Shown here: in pieces, positions 26,233-33,772 of the stretch | How the letters are laid out: each line of letters begins with the position of its first letter | Position numbering within the stretch: the first letter of the stretch is position 1 | NCBI RefSeq assembly: GCF_008711285.1 | Contig: NZ_VXDC01000005.1 | Coordinates: 186,001 to 250,000 of the forward strand | Source: Roseibium aquae | GTDB lineage: Bacteria > Pseudomonadota > Alphaproteobacteria > Rhizobiales > Stappiaceae | Direction of reading: 5' to 3' | Length of the DNA stretch: 64,000 nucleotides | Notes under the pieces: model-generated | What the model was told of the DNA's origin: nothing | Database searches by the model: none | Seen by the model: the letters and a program-made list of their open reading frames with translations, nothing else | Position numbers and translations under genes: made by a program

Positions 26233-26799
26233 TCATGCCTCCTGCTGTTTGAGCCAGTTCAGCACATCTTCGGCATTCCGGTCAGGCGGAAACACGGGGT
26301 AAAAGATCTTCACGATCGCGCCGTCTCTTGTGATGAGGGTGACCCGCTTCAGGCGGCGTTGTCCGTCTGCCTCGAATGAAGGCAACCGGAGCTGGCCGGC
26401 GAACTGTCCGTCCGCATCCGAGAGCAGGGGAAAGGGCATGTGGAGCCGGTCAGCGGCTTCGCGCTGATCCTCTGGCGATTGATTGGACGGACCGAAGACA
26501 TGGGTTGCCCCCGCTGAGCGCAGTTCCTGGTAATGGTCGCGAAAGGCGCAGGACTGCGGTGTGCAGCCGCGTGCGCCGGGAATGTCGTTCCAGCCTGACG
26601 GCAAGGACCGGTCGGGCCGTCCGGTCATCGGATAAACATAGATGACGACCGTACCGTCGAGCTGGCCGGGGTCTATTGGACCGCCGACGGTCGCCGGCAG
26701 TTGGATGGACGGCAGGCGCAATTGTGTGAGGTGGTCGCAGGCCCCGTCGTCGTGTGGGGCGGGAAGCATCGACCAATCAACGGTTTGAACCGGGTCCAT
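26233..26799 (-). CDS. Peroxiredoxin, AhpC/TSA-redoxin type
   Basis: A 188-residue thioredoxin-fold peroxidase. The catalytic region reads VVIYVYPMTGRP, then GARGCTPQSCAFRDHY with two cysteines five residues apart, as in Bcp/PrxQ-type enzymes, followed by VFGPSNQSPEDQ and MPFPLLSD. The family reduces hydroperoxides using thioredoxin. The active-site variant YPMTGRP (instead of YPKxxTP) separates it from classical Bcp. Head of a two-gene unit with the GIY-YIG gene. Confidence 0.82.
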   Translation of the reverse strand: MDPVQTVDWSMLPAPHDDGACDHLTQLRLPSIQLPATVGGPIDPGQLDGTVVIYVYPMTGRPDRSLPSGWNDIPGARGCTPQSCAFRDHYQELRSAGATHVFGPSNQSPEDQREAADRLHMPFPLLSDADGQFAGQLRLPSFEADGQRRLKRVTLITRDGAIVKIFYPVFPPDRNAEDVLNWLKQQEA

Positions 26800-26849
26800 A
26801 TCTTTTCCTCGTGCCTATCAATCGGTCAGGATCTGACCAGCTTTTGTGC

Positions 26850-26877
26850 TTGTCTGGCTGTCACCGCGCGTTATCTA
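26850..26877 (+). promoter_or_regulatory. Promoter-like elements for the 25-codon ORF
   Basis: TTGTCT (26850-26855) and TATCTA (26872-26877) with a 16-bp spacer, about 23 bp before the strong Shine-Dalgarno at 26900. Confidence 0.45.
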
Positions 26878-26899
26878 ATACCCAATTGTCAACGGCAAG

Positions 26900-26913
26900 A
26901 AAGGAGGTGATCC
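26900..26913 (+). promoter_or_regulatory. Extended anti-16S Shine-Dalgarno
   Basis: AAAGGAGGTGATCC is the exact complement of the conserved 16S rRNA 3' tail over 14 bases, far longer than usual (4-6), and ends 1 nt before the ATG at 26915. The core GGAGG has 7 nt spacing to the ATG. Confidence 0.75.
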
Positions 26914-26914
26914 C

Positions 26915-26992
26915 ATGTCTAGTGAGTTTCCGAGTGTGGCCCTGGGGTCTGGGCGGAATCTGATGGTGACGGAGCAGCCTCTTTCAGCATGA
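26915..26992 (+). CDS. Candidate 25-residue small protein or leader peptide
   Basis: A short frame immediately behind the exceptional ribosome binding site encodes MSSEFPSVALGSGRNLMVTE plus QPLSA, then TGA. It is neither hydrophobic nor basic and shows no run of one amino acid, so it is not an obvious amino-acid attenuator. It is flanked by a promoter-like pair and a strong terminator (27039-27070), forming its own small transcription unit between the peroxiredoxin and GST genes. Too short for similarity recognition; conservation in relatives would decide. Confidence 0.55.
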   Translation: MSSEFPSVALGSGRNLMVTEQPLSA

Positions 26993-27038
26993 GTTTCGCC
27001 GGGATCTGATCCGGGCACCGGGTCACTAGGATCTCATG

Positions 27039-27070
27039 AGAGGGTCGCATCGCGGCCCTCTTTTGTTTTT
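27039..27070 (+). terminator. Strong terminator after the 25-codon ORF
   Basis: A 10-bp stem (AGAGGGTCGC/GCGGCCCTCT, one G-U pair) with a 3-nt loop, followed by TTTGTTTTT. It ends the small transcription unit 47 bp after its stop. Confidence 0.85.
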
Positions 27071-27116
27071 GCCGGCTGACTTGAGCGGGGCACTTGTCCA
27101 GGTGCCGCCAATGGCT

Positions 27117-27145
27117 TTGCAATTGGTTTCAGTTGAAACTAACAT
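27117..27145 (+). promoter_or_regulatory. GST promoter with an internal palindrome
   Basis: TTGCAA (27117-27122) and TAACAT (27140-27145) are 17 bp apart. The spacer contains a perfect inverted repeat GTTTCA-GT-TGAAAC at 27126-27139, exactly where a repressor would block RNA polymerase. Confidence 0.5.
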
Positions 27146-27170
27146 GCGGAAAACAGGTGAGGAGGCATGG

Positions 27171-27821
27171 GTGTCAAAGCCATTACTGCATTCATATTTC
27201 AGAAGTTCCACAGCGTTCAGGGTCCGCATCGCACTGAACATCAAAAACCTGGAAACTGACTATCGGGCGCATCATTTGCGGCTCGGCGAACAGCGGGCGC
27301 CTGCCTATCTCACGCTCAATCCTCAGGGGCTGGTTCCTTCCCTTGAGTTGCCCGACGGCACCGTTCTCACCCAATCGCTCGCGATCATTGAATACCTCGA
27401 GGAAACGATGCCGGAGCCGCCATTGCTGCCCGCCGATCCGATCCTGCGCGCCAAGGTGAGGGCGGTTGCCCAGATGATTGCGTGCGATATTCATCCCATC
27501 AATAATCTGCGGGTGCTGAACCACCTCCGCACCTGCTTTGGCGCCGATGACGCGGCGATCGCAGGGTGGTTCCGCCATTGGGTCGAAACCACTTTCGAGC
27601 CGCTGGAAAAACAGTTGAGCCAACGCCCGCAGCGGGACCGATTCTGCTTTGGGTCGGCGCCGGGTCTCGCGGACATATGCCTGGTGGCTCAGGTGGCCAA
27701 CAATGCGCGGTTCAATGTCGATATGAGTGCGTTCCCCACGGTTCAGGCGATCCACGATGCCTGCATGGAACTGCCGGCGTTTCGGGACGCGGCCCCATCC
27801 GTCCAGCCGGACGCCGAATGA
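27171..27821 (+). CDS. Glutathione S-transferase, zeta/maleylacetoacetate isomerase-like
   Basis: A 216-residue GST with an N-terminal thioredoxin-like domain (LHSYFRSSTAFRVRIALN, NPQGLVPSLEL, TQSLAIIEYLEE) and an all-helical C-terminal domain. The SS-x-x-x-RVR motif and the YLEE segment are typical of zeta-class enzymes that isomerize maleylacetoacetate in tyrosine breakdown; no other gene of that route is here, so the true substrate is open. The GTG start at 27171 follows GAGGAGG by 7 nt; longer in-frame starts lack family sequence. Confidence 0.82.
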   Translation: MSKPLLHSYFRSSTAFRVRIALNIKNLETDYRAHHLRLGEQRAPAYLTLNPQGLVPSLELPDGTVLTQSLAIIEYLEETMPEPPLLPADPILRAKVRAVAQMIACDIHPINNLRVLNHLRTCFGADDAAIAGWFRHWVETTFEPLEKQLSQRPQRDRFCFGSAPGLADICLVAQVANNARFNVDMSAFPTVQAIHDACMELPAFRDAAPSVQPDAE

Positions 27822-27848: not shown

Positions 27849-28610
27849 TCAGATGAGCCCGACGGCTTTGCGCACTGTTTCCTCCCGAAGGGAACAGTCC
27901 ATGCCCTTGTAGGCATCGCCGGCCTCAGTGCTCAGCCACGCGATGGCCTCGCCAACCCATTCGGCTGGAATGTGCACTGACGGATCGAGTTCGCTGACCG
28001 GATTAATCCCCGATTGCTTGATCTGGACCTGCATGTCCGTGGCCACTGTTCCAGGGCTTAGGCCCATGACGCGAATGCCCTTTTCAGCGAACTCCTTGTC
28101 CGCGCACTTGGTCAGCGACAGCACAGCCGCTTTTGAAGCGCAATAATGGCTCCATCCTTCCAGCGCGCCTGTGGCTGCGCCGGAACTGATGTTGATGATG
28201 GTGCCAAGGCCTTTCTCCAGCATGAAGGGCGCTGCGGCGCGTAGACCGTGATAGACACCTTTGACGTTGATATCGATGACCTTGCCCCAGTCATCGGGAT
28301 CCGAGGTCTCGATCCGGCTGATGGGTTCGATAACCCCCGCATTATTGACCAGAATGTCTATGCCGTCGAAATTGTCCACGCACAGACGCACAGCTGCCTC
28401 GACATCATCATAGCGGCCAACGTCGCAAGAGATGGCGCTCGCTTCACCGCCGGCATCGCGAATGCTCGCCGCGATCGCTTCAATCACCTTGGTGCTGCGT
28501 GCGGCCAGGACGACCGATACGCCGTATTTGGAAAGACTGCGGGCAGCAGCCTCACCAATGCCGCGACTCGCACCGGTGATCAGAGCGGATTTTCCCCGTA
28601 GTTGAAACAT
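27849..28610 (-). CDS. Short-chain dehydrogenase/reductase (SDR)
   Basis: A 253-residue classical SDR. The cofactor motif TGASRGIG is near residue 12, with NNAG in ILVNNAGVIE near residue 87, the catalytic serine in IINISSG and the YxxxK pair in YCASK near residue 153. An arginine after the second strand (AARSTK) suggests NADP(H) preference. The substrate is unknown. The start MFQLRGKS is preferred to an ATG 11 codons upstream. It converges with the GST gene, 27 bp away. Confidence 0.87.
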   Translation of the reverse strand: MFQLRGKSALITGASRGIGEAAARSLSKYGVSVVLAARSTKVIEAIAASIRDAGGEASAISCDVGRYDDVEAAVRLCVDNFDGIDILVNNAGVIEPISRIETSDPDDWGKVIDINVKGVYHGLRAAAPFMLEKGLGTIINISSGAATGALEGWSHYCASKAAVLSLTKCADKEFAEKGIRVMGLSPGTVATDMQVQIKQSGINPVSELDPSVHIPAEWVGEAIAWLSTEAGDAYKGMDCSLREETVRKAVGLI

Positions 28611-28856
28611 GTTTGAAAGTCCTCGAAGGGTCTGTCGAGCCAAAGGGCGGAATGAGGCCGCACCTTATTGCCTCGGCGGCTGGGAATAAATAGGCTCGAG
28701 CTCACCAGACGCAGTTGGGAGAGGCTAGCGGCGCCAAGCCGTTTCCCGAAGACGAGCAACCTCCCCGGAGACTGGAAATTGCCCTTGGAATTCCGGGACC
28801 CGGACAGACGGCACTCAATTGGACAAGGCCTGCACATTCTAAAGACAGGATCCGAT

Positions 28857-29650: not shown

Positions 29651-32600
29651 TCAGCCGCGGGCTGCCAGCCTCTGATTGACGAGAGAAAACTCGACCAGCT
29701 CTTTGCTGGTCATAGGCCGGGCGAGGGCATAACCTTGAAGCACATCGCAGCCCATGTCCCGCAGCATCTTGACGTGCTGCATCGTCTCGACCCCTTCTGA
29801 AACAACCTCGAGATTGATGGAGCGGCCCATATCGATGACGGCCTGCAGCAGCTTCCGGTGGTCTTCGGAACGGGCGATGGGGTGAACCAGTTCGCGATCA
29901 ATCTTGACCCGTCTGGGCGACGCCGACCACATTCCCAAAAACGAAGACTGGCCGGTCCCGAAATTGTCGATCTCGATGTCGATTCCAAGGTCGGCAATCT
30001 CCCGGATCCGGGCCTTGAGCTCTTCGTTCGTGTGGTCGAGCATGGTCGATTCATGCACTTCAAAGGCCATGCGGCCATTGGGAATATAGAGTTTTTTCAG
30101 AAGATTTATCAAAAACGGATTGGCCACGCGCTGCGCGGACACATTGACGGCAATTCGCGGAATGGGGGCATTTTGCCGATCCCAGCGGCGCATGTCTTCC
30201 AGAGCCGTTTCCAGGATCGTTTGGTCGATTTGATCGGCGGCTCCCAATTCCTTGGCGGCCGCGAGAAACGACGGCGGGGACAGAACGCCAAGAACCGGGT
30301 GCTTCCAGCGGGCGAGAGCCTCCACACCGATGAGTTCAAGCGATTTGGCGTCAAACTGCGGCTGGTAGACCGGGAAGAATTCGCCTTTTTCCAAACCGTC
30401 CAGAATATCGTCCGAAATCCGTTTTGTGCGCTCGATCTCCTTTTGAAGATCCCGCGAGAAGAAGGTGAAGCGTCCGCGGCCCTGCCGCTTTGCGCGGTAA
30501 AGTGCGATATCAGCGTTCATCATGAGTCTCGCTGGATCGCTCGGCTGGCTGCTGATGTCCTCGCCCATGCTGGCGATGCCAATGTCAATGCCGATGCTTG
30601 CACCGAAACGGCAAAGCTCATTCTCATAAGGCACGGGCCGGCTCAGCTCGGAAATCAGCAGGTCGGCCAGGAACTCGAGTTCTTCGCGGGCAACCGTCGA
30701 CTCCCGCAAGACGACAAACTCGTCCCCGCCGATACGGGCGATGAAATCGTCCTCCGCACAGTTTTCCCGAAGCACTTGAGCCACATGGCGCAGAATGTAA
30801 TCCCCGGCCGCATGTCCCAGCGTGTCATTGATGGCCTTGAAGCGGTCCAGATCGATCTGCAGCAGCGCCAGTTCCTTTTCGCGGCTTCCCTCTCGCCATT
30901 CCTGCAGCCGCTGATCGAGATAGCGCCGGTTCGGGAGGCCCGTGAGCGGGTCGTGAAGGCTGTCGAATTCGGCGCGCGATTTCGTCTGCTGAAGCACGAG
31001 GTTTCGTTCTTCTGCAAGCCGTTGGGCATCTTGTAATTCGTGTTCTCTCTGCTTCAAATCCGTGACGTCGGTGATCACGCCCACGATGTAACGGTCGCCA
31101 TTGTCCGTCGTGGCAAGGGTCTTGCTGGATATCGCGGCCCGGAAGGTCCCTTCTGCTTGGCGGTCGATCAGCTCTTCGGTTCTCACGTGCCGGCCGGTTT
31201 CGAGGACGGCCTGGTCCATGTTCTCGGCGATCCGGGCCGCTTCGGTCGGCAGACATTCATGGGAGGTTCGCCCAATCAGGGCTTCCCGGTCCAGATTGAA
31301 CAGCCCGCTATAGGCCGTGTTGACAAGGACATAGCGGAACTGCGCATCCTTCGCGGAAACAGGATTGGGGACTGTGTCGAGAACAAGTTGTGCCAATTCC
31401 GCACGGCGGAGGGCCTCTTGAAGGGCCCTTTCCCGCTCTTTCAGCTTGCTGACATCGTTCAGAACCGTCACGACATATCTGTCGCCGGATTTTGTGGTTG
31501 CAACGGATTTCCGTGTGATGGATGCGTATTCCCGTCCCCCCGGAAATGAGAGGATTTCATCCATTTCCAAGATCTCTCCCGTCGTAAGGGCGGTCCGGTC
31601 CCGGGTGTTGAGGGCGGCGGTGTCGAAAAACGGGAAAATCTCCTCCACTTGCCGGCCTAAAAAGCTCGAGCGATCGCGCTCGACGAGCCTGCAATAGGCG
31701 TCATTGGCCATCACATAGGTCAACTCGGCGTTCTTCACGATGATCGGGTTGGTCAACTGGTTGAGCACCGCGGCAGCCAGTTCGGCCTTATCGAGGGCCG
31801 CTTTCAGCATCGTTTCCTGGCGGCGCAGCCGGGTCACGTCGTTCAAAATTGTGATCGTGAACTCACCTTCGCGGGTCCGGAGATAGCTGTGGCGGTTCTG
31901 AAGCGAAAGCGGCTTTCCGTCCTTGCGGACAAAGGTGCCTTCCTGCTCGATCGGTTGTCTGGTTCGCAGCACTTCGTTCGTGATATCGAGAATGCGGCCC
32001 GCGCGTTCCGGCTCATGAATTGCATCTGGCGTGGAACCGATTATCTGGCTGATCGGCAGGCCGTAGAGCTCCGAAAAGGCATGGTTGACCATGACATACC
32101 GGTGCGCACTGTCCTTGACGACGACCGGATTTCCAAGGTTGTCCAGAATATGCTTGGCGAGCTCAGCCATCTGCAAGGCCTCTTTCAGCTGGCTTTCCTT
32201 TTCCTTGAGGCGCGTGATGTCTGTGAAAACAGTGACCAGGTACTCCCTGTTTTGATCCGTGCGGGTCAGCCCCTTCCGCACGAGGGCAGGCATCGCAGCT
32301 CCGTCTGGTTTTGTCAGTTCGTCTTCAAACTCCTGCGCAAGCCCGGAGCGCATCACAGCCAAGTCGGACTGCGTGATCCGGTCCAACATGACGCCGGATT
32401 TGAAAAAATCATCTGCCTTGCAGCCAATGAGGCGTTCGCGGGTTAGCCCGGCAGATTCCAGATAGGCCTTGTTGGCCAATACATAACGGAGCTGATGGTC
32501 CTTGACATGAAGGGGCAAGCTCAACTGATCGAAAACGAGTTCCGAAAGTTGCGCGCGCTCCAATGCCTCGGAGAGTCTTTGTTGCTGGCGTTTGTAGCGG

Positions 32601-33772
32601 GTGATGTCACTGACGGAAGTAACGACGAAAGGTTTGTGTCCGGCGACGAGCGCCAGCCCCTTCCGGGTGACTGTCGTAAGCTGCTCTCCCTGCCCGCGAA
32701 GATAGGTGTTTTCATCCTCTCGTGTTTTGCCCGTTGTCAAAACGTTTTGGTCGAACTCCCGCATGCGTTCGGCGAGAGCGGTGGGCAAAAAGTCGTAGCC
32801 CTGCCGTCCGATCAAGGCTGCCCGGTCAATCTCGAAGTAATCCGCATAGGCCTGGTTCATCATGATGCAGGTGTGCGTTTCATCCCGTACGATCACCGGT
32901 GTTTTTAATTGCTCAAGAACCTGCTCCGACAACTCAGCTTTCTGAAGAGCCTTGGAAAGGGCACTTTCCTTGAGCTTCAGTGGTGTGATGTTGTTGTGAA
33001 CCGTCAAAATCAACGCATCGCCATTGCCCGTTTTCATCAACGTCTTGGAGGTGTTCAAGAACAGCGGTTGGCCATCCGGGCCATCCAGTGTTTGTGTGAA
33101 CTCCCGTGGCTCACCCGTCTCCAAGAGGCGTTTTTCCGCGTTGATCGTCACCGCATTGGGTTTGGTGTGGGGCTGCGCTTTTCCGGTTTTCCCGAGCAAG
33201 GCCGCAGGCTCGGTTCCATGTAGCCGGCAAAAAGCATCGTTGACGAAAATGTATTCCTGACGGGCGTTTTTGATACTGACCGCATTCGTCAAATGATCCA
33301 GCGCCGTCTTGGCGAGGCTGGCTTGCGTCAATGCGGTTTCGAGTTTGTCATCCCGGCCGTGTCCCTCTGTGACGTCATGCAATGCAATCGAAAAGAGGCC
33401 ATCTGGCAAGGCGGTGCCGGCAAATGCGATGATCTTGTCGGTCTCCAGAACAACCTCGATGGAGAACCCGGTGCCATCCGTGCAGAGATTCCGGTAGGCT
33501 TCGAGGAGCCGATCCACAGCCCCTTGCGGAAACGCACCAAGCACGACGGCTATGTTCAGAAGCGTAGAAAAGTCCAATCCCTTGGGATCGAGAGCGGCGT
33601 TCGGGCGGTCGATACCCAGAACAGCCCAGGTTGCGCCATTGATCATGTGAAGGGTGTCTGCATCGCCAAGAACGACACCATGGTCGCAAGCGGCCAACAG
33701 GCCGCGCAACAATCGGGCGGGATCCAAGTTCGGCGTAACAAAATCGTCGATGCGATCGAGATGGATTGTCAT
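29651..33772 (-). CDS. Giant PAS-repeat GGDEF/EAL cyclic-di-GMP protein
   Basis: A 1373-residue cytoplasmic protein without membrane helices. After a divergent PAS-like segment (about 20-140) come six PAS units at a strict period of about 128 residues; each is introduced by a helix of the pattern L-x-x-AL-x-x-AEL (residues 144, 272, 400, 529, 656, 784). A GGDEF domain follows (intact GGDEF at 1015-1019; the inhibitory RxxD site is absent), then an EAL domain (EAL at 1151-1153). The EAL metal motif DDFGTG is DNFGTG (N1270), so phosphodiesterase activity may be weakened. It ends 8 bp from the convergent channel gene. Confidence 0.93.
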   Translation of the reverse strand: MTIHLDRIDDFVTPNLDPARLLRGLLAACDHGVVLGDADTLHMINGATWAVLGIDRPNAALDPKGLDFSTLLNIAVVLGAFPQGAVDRLLEAYRNLCTDGTGFSIEVVLETDKIIAFAGTALPDGLFSIALHDVTEGHGRDDKLETALTQASLAKTALDHLTNAVSIKNARQEYIFVNDAFCRLHGTEPAALLGKTGKAQPHTKPNAVTINAEKRLLETGEPREFTQTLDGPDGQPLFLNTSKTLMKTGNGDALILTVHNNITPLKLKESALSKALQKAELSEQVLEQLKTPVIVRDETHTCIMMNQAYADYFEIDRAALIGRQGYDFLPTALAERMREFDQNVLTTGKTREDENTYLRGQGEQLTTVTRKGLALVAGHKPFVVTSVSDITRYKRQQQRLSEALERAQLSELVFDQLSLPLHVKDHQLRYVLANKAYLESAGLTRERLIGCKADDFFKSGVMLDRITQSDLAVMRSGLAQEFEDELTKPDGAAMPALVRKGLTRTDQNREYLVTVFTDITRLKEKESQLKEALQMAELAKHILDNLGNPVVVKDSAHRYVMVNHAFSELYGLPISQIIGSTPDAIHEPERAGRILDITNEVLRTRQPIEQEGTFVRKDGKPLSLQNRHSYLRTREGEFTITILNDVTRLRRQETMLKAALDKAELAAAVLNQLTNPIIVKNAELTYVMANDAYCRLVERDRSSFLGRQVEEIFPFFDTAALNTRDRTALTTGEILEMDEILSFPGGREYASITRKSVATTKSGDRYVVTVLNDVSKLKERERALQEALRRAELAQLVLDTVPNPVSAKDAQFRYVLVNTAYSGLFNLDREALIGRTSHECLPTEAARIAENMDQAVLETGRHVRTEELIDRQAEGTFRAAISSKTLATTDNGDRYIVGVITDVTDLKQREHELQDAQRLAEERNLVLQQTKSRAEFDSLHDPLTGLPNRRYLDQRLQEWREGSREKELALLQIDLDRFKAINDTLGHAAGDYILRHVAQVLRENCAEDDFIARIGGDEFVVLRESTVAREELEFLADLLISELSRPVPYENELCRFGASIGIDIGIASMGEDISSQPSDPARLMMNADIALYRAKRQGRGRFTFFSRDLQKEIERTKRISDDILDGLEKGEFFPVYQPQFDAKSLELIGVEALARWKHPVLGVLSPPSFLAAAKELGAADQIDQTILETALEDMRRWDRQNAPIPRIAVNVSAQRVANPFLINLLKKLYIPNGRMAFEVHESTMLDHTNEELKARIREIADLGIDIEIDNFGTGQSSFLGMWSASPRRVKIDRELVHPIARSEDHRKLLQAVIDMGRSINLEVVSEGVETMQHVKMLRDMGCDVLQGYALARPMTSKELVEFSLVNQRLAARG

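Follow-up and report, generated by a model that had tools for sequence, protein, structure and literature searches.

Introduction

CC2171 (RF01867), a small RNA family of Caulobacter that is said to originate from Landt et al. 2008, has the Rfam type of a non-coding sRNA. Small RNAs based on pairing between Shine-Dalgarno (SD) and anti-SD sequences are known from alphaproteobacteria in alphaR8/SisA-D and in the sponge CrfA (PMC12559287). In some of these bacteria the ordinary use of the SD is weak, being found for 24.6% of the coding sequences of C. crescentus (PMC4117421). A very strong SD can itself be a regulatory device: in the rpsU (bS21) mRNA of Flavobacteriales an exceptionally strong SD lets ribosomes that lack bS21 translate rpsU, which is thereby autoregulated (PMC9976891). 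In E. coli, bS21 is thought to hinder extended SD pairing (PMC13009471). Initiation in Staphylococcus aureus uses pairing that runs past GGAGG toward the start codon, as at the locus described here, but does so genome-wide on ordinary mRNAs and in a phylum with a different bS21 (PMC13009471). A ribosome profiling study of Sinorhizobium meliloti added the small protein SEP1, of 23 aa and pI 4.18, which is conserved in Rhizobiaceae; SEP1 has the highest translation efficiency of 54 new sORFs, its tagged form is visible on blots, and one peptide was detected by mass spectrometry (PMC10117765).

Here we describe a locus in a 64-kb stretch of the genome of Roseibium aquae (64,000 nt of contig NZ_VXDC01000005.1, called the window throughout) that appears to connect several of these observations. 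Its features are collected in Table 1.

Table 1. Features of the locus and its neighbours, in window coordinates
Feature	Position	Strand	Basis or remark
Redoxin-family protein	26233-26799	-	Neighbour, divergent
Candidate promoter: -35 CTTGTC (26849-26854), -10-like TATCTA (26872-26877), 17-nt spacer	26849-26877	+	Recurring bases in homologues
Predicted transcript, about 187 nt (start ±3 nt)	26884-27070	+	Promoter spacing, terminator, R1 and RF01867 matches
Extended SD AGAAAGGAGGTGATCC	26898-26913	+	16-nt perfect complement of 16S 3' tail
25-codon sORF MSSEFPSVALGSGRNLMVTEQPLSA, stop TGA 26990-26992	26915-26992	+	Start kept, length conserved
P1 closing helix, 5' strand GTGAG (codons 3-4)	26922-26926	+	Pairs with 27033-27037
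P1 closing helix, 3' strand CTCAT	27033-27037	+	Abuts terminator
P2 (26935-26942 with 27013-27014 and 27022-27027)	26935-27027	+	Three pairs changed on both sides
P3 (26947-26957 with 26995-27005)	26947-27005	+	Four pairs changed on both sides
P4 hairpin, CAGC loop 26975-26978	26964-26989	+	Within sORF end; three pairs changed on both sides
Intrinsic terminator: 11-bp stem 27038-27062 plus TTGTTTTT, T tract to 27070	27038-27070	+	Covarying pairs
Glutathione S-transferase (GST)	within 27036-27821	+	Downstream neighbour
Short-chain dehydrogenase	27849-28643	-	Neighbour

A site complementary to the 16S rRNA tail

The initial annotation had pointed to a 14-base stretch, AAAGGAGGTGATCC (26900-26913), that pairs without a mismatch with the 3' end of 16S rRNA and is directly followed by a reading frame of 25 residues. 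Both observations hold, and the complement is even longer than claimed, at 16 nt, with a single C between it and the ATG at 26915. The tail used for pairing, ...CTGGATCACCTCCTTTCT, was taken from named alphaproteobacterial records with plasmid-borne rRNA. The site is predicted to pair with nearly all of the 16S tail beyond helix 45. The second-longest match to the tail in the window has 10 nt, and the longest in 20 Markov-shuffled windows has 12 nt. The SD/tail duplex is predicted at -28.4 kcal/mol, whereas two ordinary SDs give values of about -10 to -13 kcal/mol. It is thus stronger than the -13 kcal/mol used as the mark for the rpsU mRNA, with the proviso that the program possibly differs from that of PMC9976891. 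In predicted folds of the window RNA the SD stretch is more open than the remainder (0.60 vs 0.25 unpaired).

Short reading frames are plentiful, and such a complement could in principle stand beside a random one by coincidence. However, only 0.02 copies of the 14-mer are expected in the 4.4-Mb genome, which has one, and the motif is conserved across the class, so that this explanation is already refuted and its probability negligible. Outside Roseibium, 60 of 74 homologues found by model or by BLAST carry the 15-mer GAAAGGAGGTGATCC without a mismatch, and 70 carry it with at most one. Most Roseibium relatives carry GGAGGTGTGCCC, an 11-nt match, in place of the fuller site, and the Sinorhizobium site has a one-base bulge in its match to the tail. 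The window species has therefore kept the fuller form, and a match to the full tail is not obligatory.

Relationship to CC2171 and distribution

The region is present in all 37 of the same-genus genomes. In a cmscan search, the window matches the full RF01867 model (26891-27058) with 23.4 bits and an E value of 0.0041, which is far below the gathering cut-off of 75 bits; it is therefore a divergent homologue of CC2171 and not a formal Rfam member. The best Roseibium sequence tested reaches 40.9 bits. A second model, R1, was built from 17 sequences (the window and relatives) with the MSHC group left out. It matches the window over its full length (26886-27067) and recovers the above-cut-off RF01867 loci at the same places, for example L116 at full length with 43.3 bits (6e-10); the window and the CC2171 loci are therefore homologous. 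Of 249 genomes in the order, the RF01867 model hits 122, nearly always at a single locus, and R1 hits 133. Besides being hit at the same loci by both models, the two share the 5' block CAACAA..GAAAGGAGGUGAUCC.RUGUC, the overall length, the closing long-range helix and the terminator, whereas the internal hairpins vary between groups. They differ in that the Rfam family is typed as non-coding and a conserved short reading frame is found here.

Of 337 genomes sampled from the class, 64 have the motif GAAAGGAGGTGATCCRRTGTC with up to one mismatch, and a reversed control gave 0 matches; a shorter, exact core pattern occurs in 47/86 alphaproteobacteria vs 1/213 other Pseudomonadota sampled (sums tallied from the per-group rows of the search output). 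Named hosts include S. meliloti, Rhizobium tumorigenes, Methylobacterium, Azospirillum and Skermanella. A mobile-element origin was considered and rejected: phages hold no DNA similar to the locus and plasmids none similar to the window, though homologues do sit on large replicons in Sinorhizobium, Rhizobium, Methylobacterium, Azospirillum and Skermanella. One such record, CP090106.1, which carries the S. meliloti homologue L253, is titled as plasmid pSymB, yet its 3.72 Mb is the size of a chromosome, pSymB being given as 1.68 Mb in PMC10117765; it is probably mislabelled. Two otherwise single-copy genomes have a second motif match (G179:C7:10007-10023 and G295:C1:805112-805132).

Transcription signals and genomic context

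The promoter-like pair of the initial annotation fares unevenly. Taken alone it is a weak match, and in the window it does not pass a scan with the sigma-70 consensus; on the other hand, 141 homologues show recurring bases at fixed distances upstream of the SD, CTTG about 49 nt and CATA/TATA-like bases about 26 nt before it. The strong terminator is borne out, and a terminator-like hairpin is found in 123 of the 141 homologues, about 124 nt past the start codon. The predicted transcript folds with a minimum free energy of -79.7 kcal/mol (z -2.9), and the homologue MH_s33 of M. huakuii is reported from RNA-seq to be transcribed (PMC5596092). Lack of conservation of frame or site in relatives had been named as the outcome that would count against a hidden transcription unit; instead site, frame, start and stop are kept far beyond the genus, and at the sequence level such a unit is supported. 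Immediately 5' of the promoter, on the side facing the divergent redoxin gene, is an inverted repeat, GGTCAGGATCTGACC (26824-26838), which could be an operator.

A short reading frame and a terminator 5' of a GST gene are the parts expected of a leader peptide or attenuator for that gene. We regard this as very improbable: the genes up- and downstream are not the same from one family to the next, nor even throughout the genus, the frame has no run of regulatory codons, and the terminator recurs in 123/141 homologues. A comparison of the neighbouring genes gave no cluster generally common to the families, and a GST leader was rejected for want of shared synteny. The locus is a free-standing gene, nearly always in single copy per genome. 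Further downstream, a 1373-aa ORF (29651-33772, minus strand) resembles, by eye, a series of PAS domains accompanied by GGDEF and EAL.

Reading frame and translation

The reading frame that opens at the conserved start is 20-31 codons long in 94% of the 141 homologues, against 12% in other frames. When the homologues are reduced to 31 clusters of less than 66% identity, 26 (84%) still have a frame of this length, compared with 6-10% in other frames, about 17% in shuffles and 35% in the best shuffle. The frame opens with ATG or GTG, or in three genomes of the class with TTG; TGA, TAA and TAG all serve as stops, and wherever a terminator is found the stop lies 9-97 nt 5' of it. L187 is exceptional: here the same motif precedes an ORF of 58 codons whose N-terminus resembles a signal peptide, and this may be a different gene with a similar site.

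The sequence of the peptide behaves otherwise. Codon-level conservation, proposed as a check in the initial annotation, is largely absent: among 29 distinct Roseibium ORFs, changes fall 50/72/51 on the three codon positions, with no excess at the third, and a dN/dS-like ratio is 1.19; outside Roseibium the ratio is 0.80, against 1.0-1.2 in other frames. RNA blocks within the frame are invariant, while the frame is kept and its sequence is mostly free. The window peptide has no Pfam match. In two Roseibium species (L004 and L109) a one-base deletion within the ORF alters the C-terminus and again leaves a short frame, of 24 codons. A clade with large genomes (L153, L156, L159 and L170) has an ORF of 14 codons only, with a near-constant peptide ..KRCHLAGIAR that is unlike those of other clades.

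The suggestion that the locus could make a small protein thus stands in one respect and not in another: the conservation expected of the peptide is largely missing, and in S. meliloti the homologue is apparently translated. That homologue, MSNEISDLVMDMGEVKESRQPSA, has 23 aa and a pI of 4.18, the length and pI published for SEP1, and none of the other 23-aa ORFs in the fetched loci (0/218) has this pI. Judged by length, pI and taxon we are confident that the two are the same, and the homologue is therefore very probably translated in vivo. In the text consulted, SEP1 is presented as a small protein of Rhizobiaceae, with no link to CC2171 or to an RNA found across the class. Against translation counts the general report that ncRNA regions of C. 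crescentus are untranslated (PMC4117421).

The main rival to the reading that we favour below is accordingly a small-protein gene, in which a peptide of 20-31 aa acts in trans and the strong SD just raises output. Conserved start, stop and length argue for it, as do the match to SEP1 with its highest translation efficiency, an N-terminal MS together with clade-wise motifs, and, weakly, the in-frame ratio outside Roseibium. The Roseibium ratio, without third-position excess, argues against it, as do the frameshifted C-termini of two species, peptides that range from pI 4 to 12 across homologues with no common pattern of hydropathy, and an EQP motif that overlies an RNA hairpin with a covarying stem. 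A fast-evolving functional peptide is possible, and we hold this rival to be unlikely, if still worth serious attention. That the length of the ORF is conserved and the peptide hardly so suggests that catching ribosomes, or being read by them, outweighs what is made.

Conserved RNA structure

In contrast to the weak constraint on the peptide, the helices of the RNA covary. For the 46 pairs predicted in Roseibium, 97.8% of alignment cells are paired, a value that drops to 42-55% when the partners are slid, and 13 pairs are changed on both sides, against 5.6 in shuffles; three of the terminator stem are among the pairs with such changes. The letters of P1 vary by group, GUGAG/CUCAU in the window and CAUUGUC/GACAAUG in the MSHC group, and its complementarity exceeds that of a control with strands swapped between genomes (p about 2e-17, a value that ignores relatedness among sequences that are not independent). 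The GGAG-CAGC-CUC of P4 is discernible in several other families. An internal anti-SD, by which GCCUC near the end of the ORF would mask the SD, was considered and dropped: in predicted folds the motif falls within P4 or a loop, and the SD stays more open than the remainder of the RNA.

Conservation and covariation at the RNA level would also suit a regulatory RNA that pairs with a partner other than the ribosome, for instance a sponge for the anti-SD sRNAs alphaR8/SisA-D (UUUCCUCCCU), with translation incidental. Such anti-SD-loop sRNAs and an RNA sponge are known in alphaproteobacteria (PMC12559287), and like them the RNA described here is based on SD/anti-SD pairing, though SisA-D expose CCUCC and this RNA exposes GGAGG. 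The conserved block, however, tracks the 16S tail over 15-17 nt, far past the GGAGG that such sRNAs need, and a sponge leaves the conserved ORF length and stop unexplained. We consider it improbable, more so than the small-protein gene.

Ribosome capture as a possible function

Comparison of the homologous sequences shows a conserved site, start codon, short ORF, set of long-range helices and terminator around a peptide sequence that is hardly conserved. On balance we lean towards a structured small mRNA that captures the 30S subunit through the 16S tail, with ribosome binding or translation selected and not the peptide. Pairing of the tail with nearly the whole 5' site would hold a 30S subunit far more tightly than an ordinary SD does. 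A 30S subunit on an mRNA also covers nucleotides beyond the start codon. P1 begins 7-11 nt 3' of the start codon and so within this footprint; by this geometry, 30S binding and closure of the fold should be mutually exclusive. There would then be two states of the RNA, one ribosome-bound and translated and one folded, and it may serve as a sensor of, or a sink for, 30S subunits whose 16S tail is free, such as subunits short of bS21. The short ORF would let the ribosome terminate ahead of the terminator hairpin, and the peptide would be mostly a by-product.

The analogy is with the rpsU mRNA of Flavobacteriales and bS21: there too a single transcript has an exceptionally strong SD, with which it could sense what state the 16S tail is in. 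The rpsU mRNA, by contrast, encodes and regulates bS21, whereas the locus here has 25 codons and no ribosomal protein. A stand-alone sensor or sink for free-tail 30S subunits is thus the function that this analogy leads us to favour, and among those first suggested for the locus the evidence leans towards sequestration of ribosomes or 16S tails and sensing of translation. The open-licence papers searched do not describe a stand-alone ribosome sensor or sink of this kind. A broader proposal is tentative, and we would not yet subscribe to it: a riboregulator present across the class and with translation itself as its effector, in which full-tail pairing would read how abundant free 16S tails are or what state they are in, and translation over a set length would be required, the peptide being irrelevant.

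Conclusions

Separate entries already exist for the RNA family and, very probably, for the S. meliloti peptide; the link between CC2171 and SEP1, the spread across the class, the match to nearly the full tail and the conservation of ORF length without sequence were not found in the open-licence literature searched. An orphan Caulobacter sRNA family, a small protein of S. meliloti and a Roseibium locus are apparently one alphaproteobacterial gene. The ordinary SD is weak in some of these bacteria, yet a single RNA retains a match of 15-17 nt to the 16S tail, which opens a direct test of whether bacteria read the state of their ribosomes with an RNA. The locus is also a warning that the label non-coding on an RNA family does not preclude its translation.
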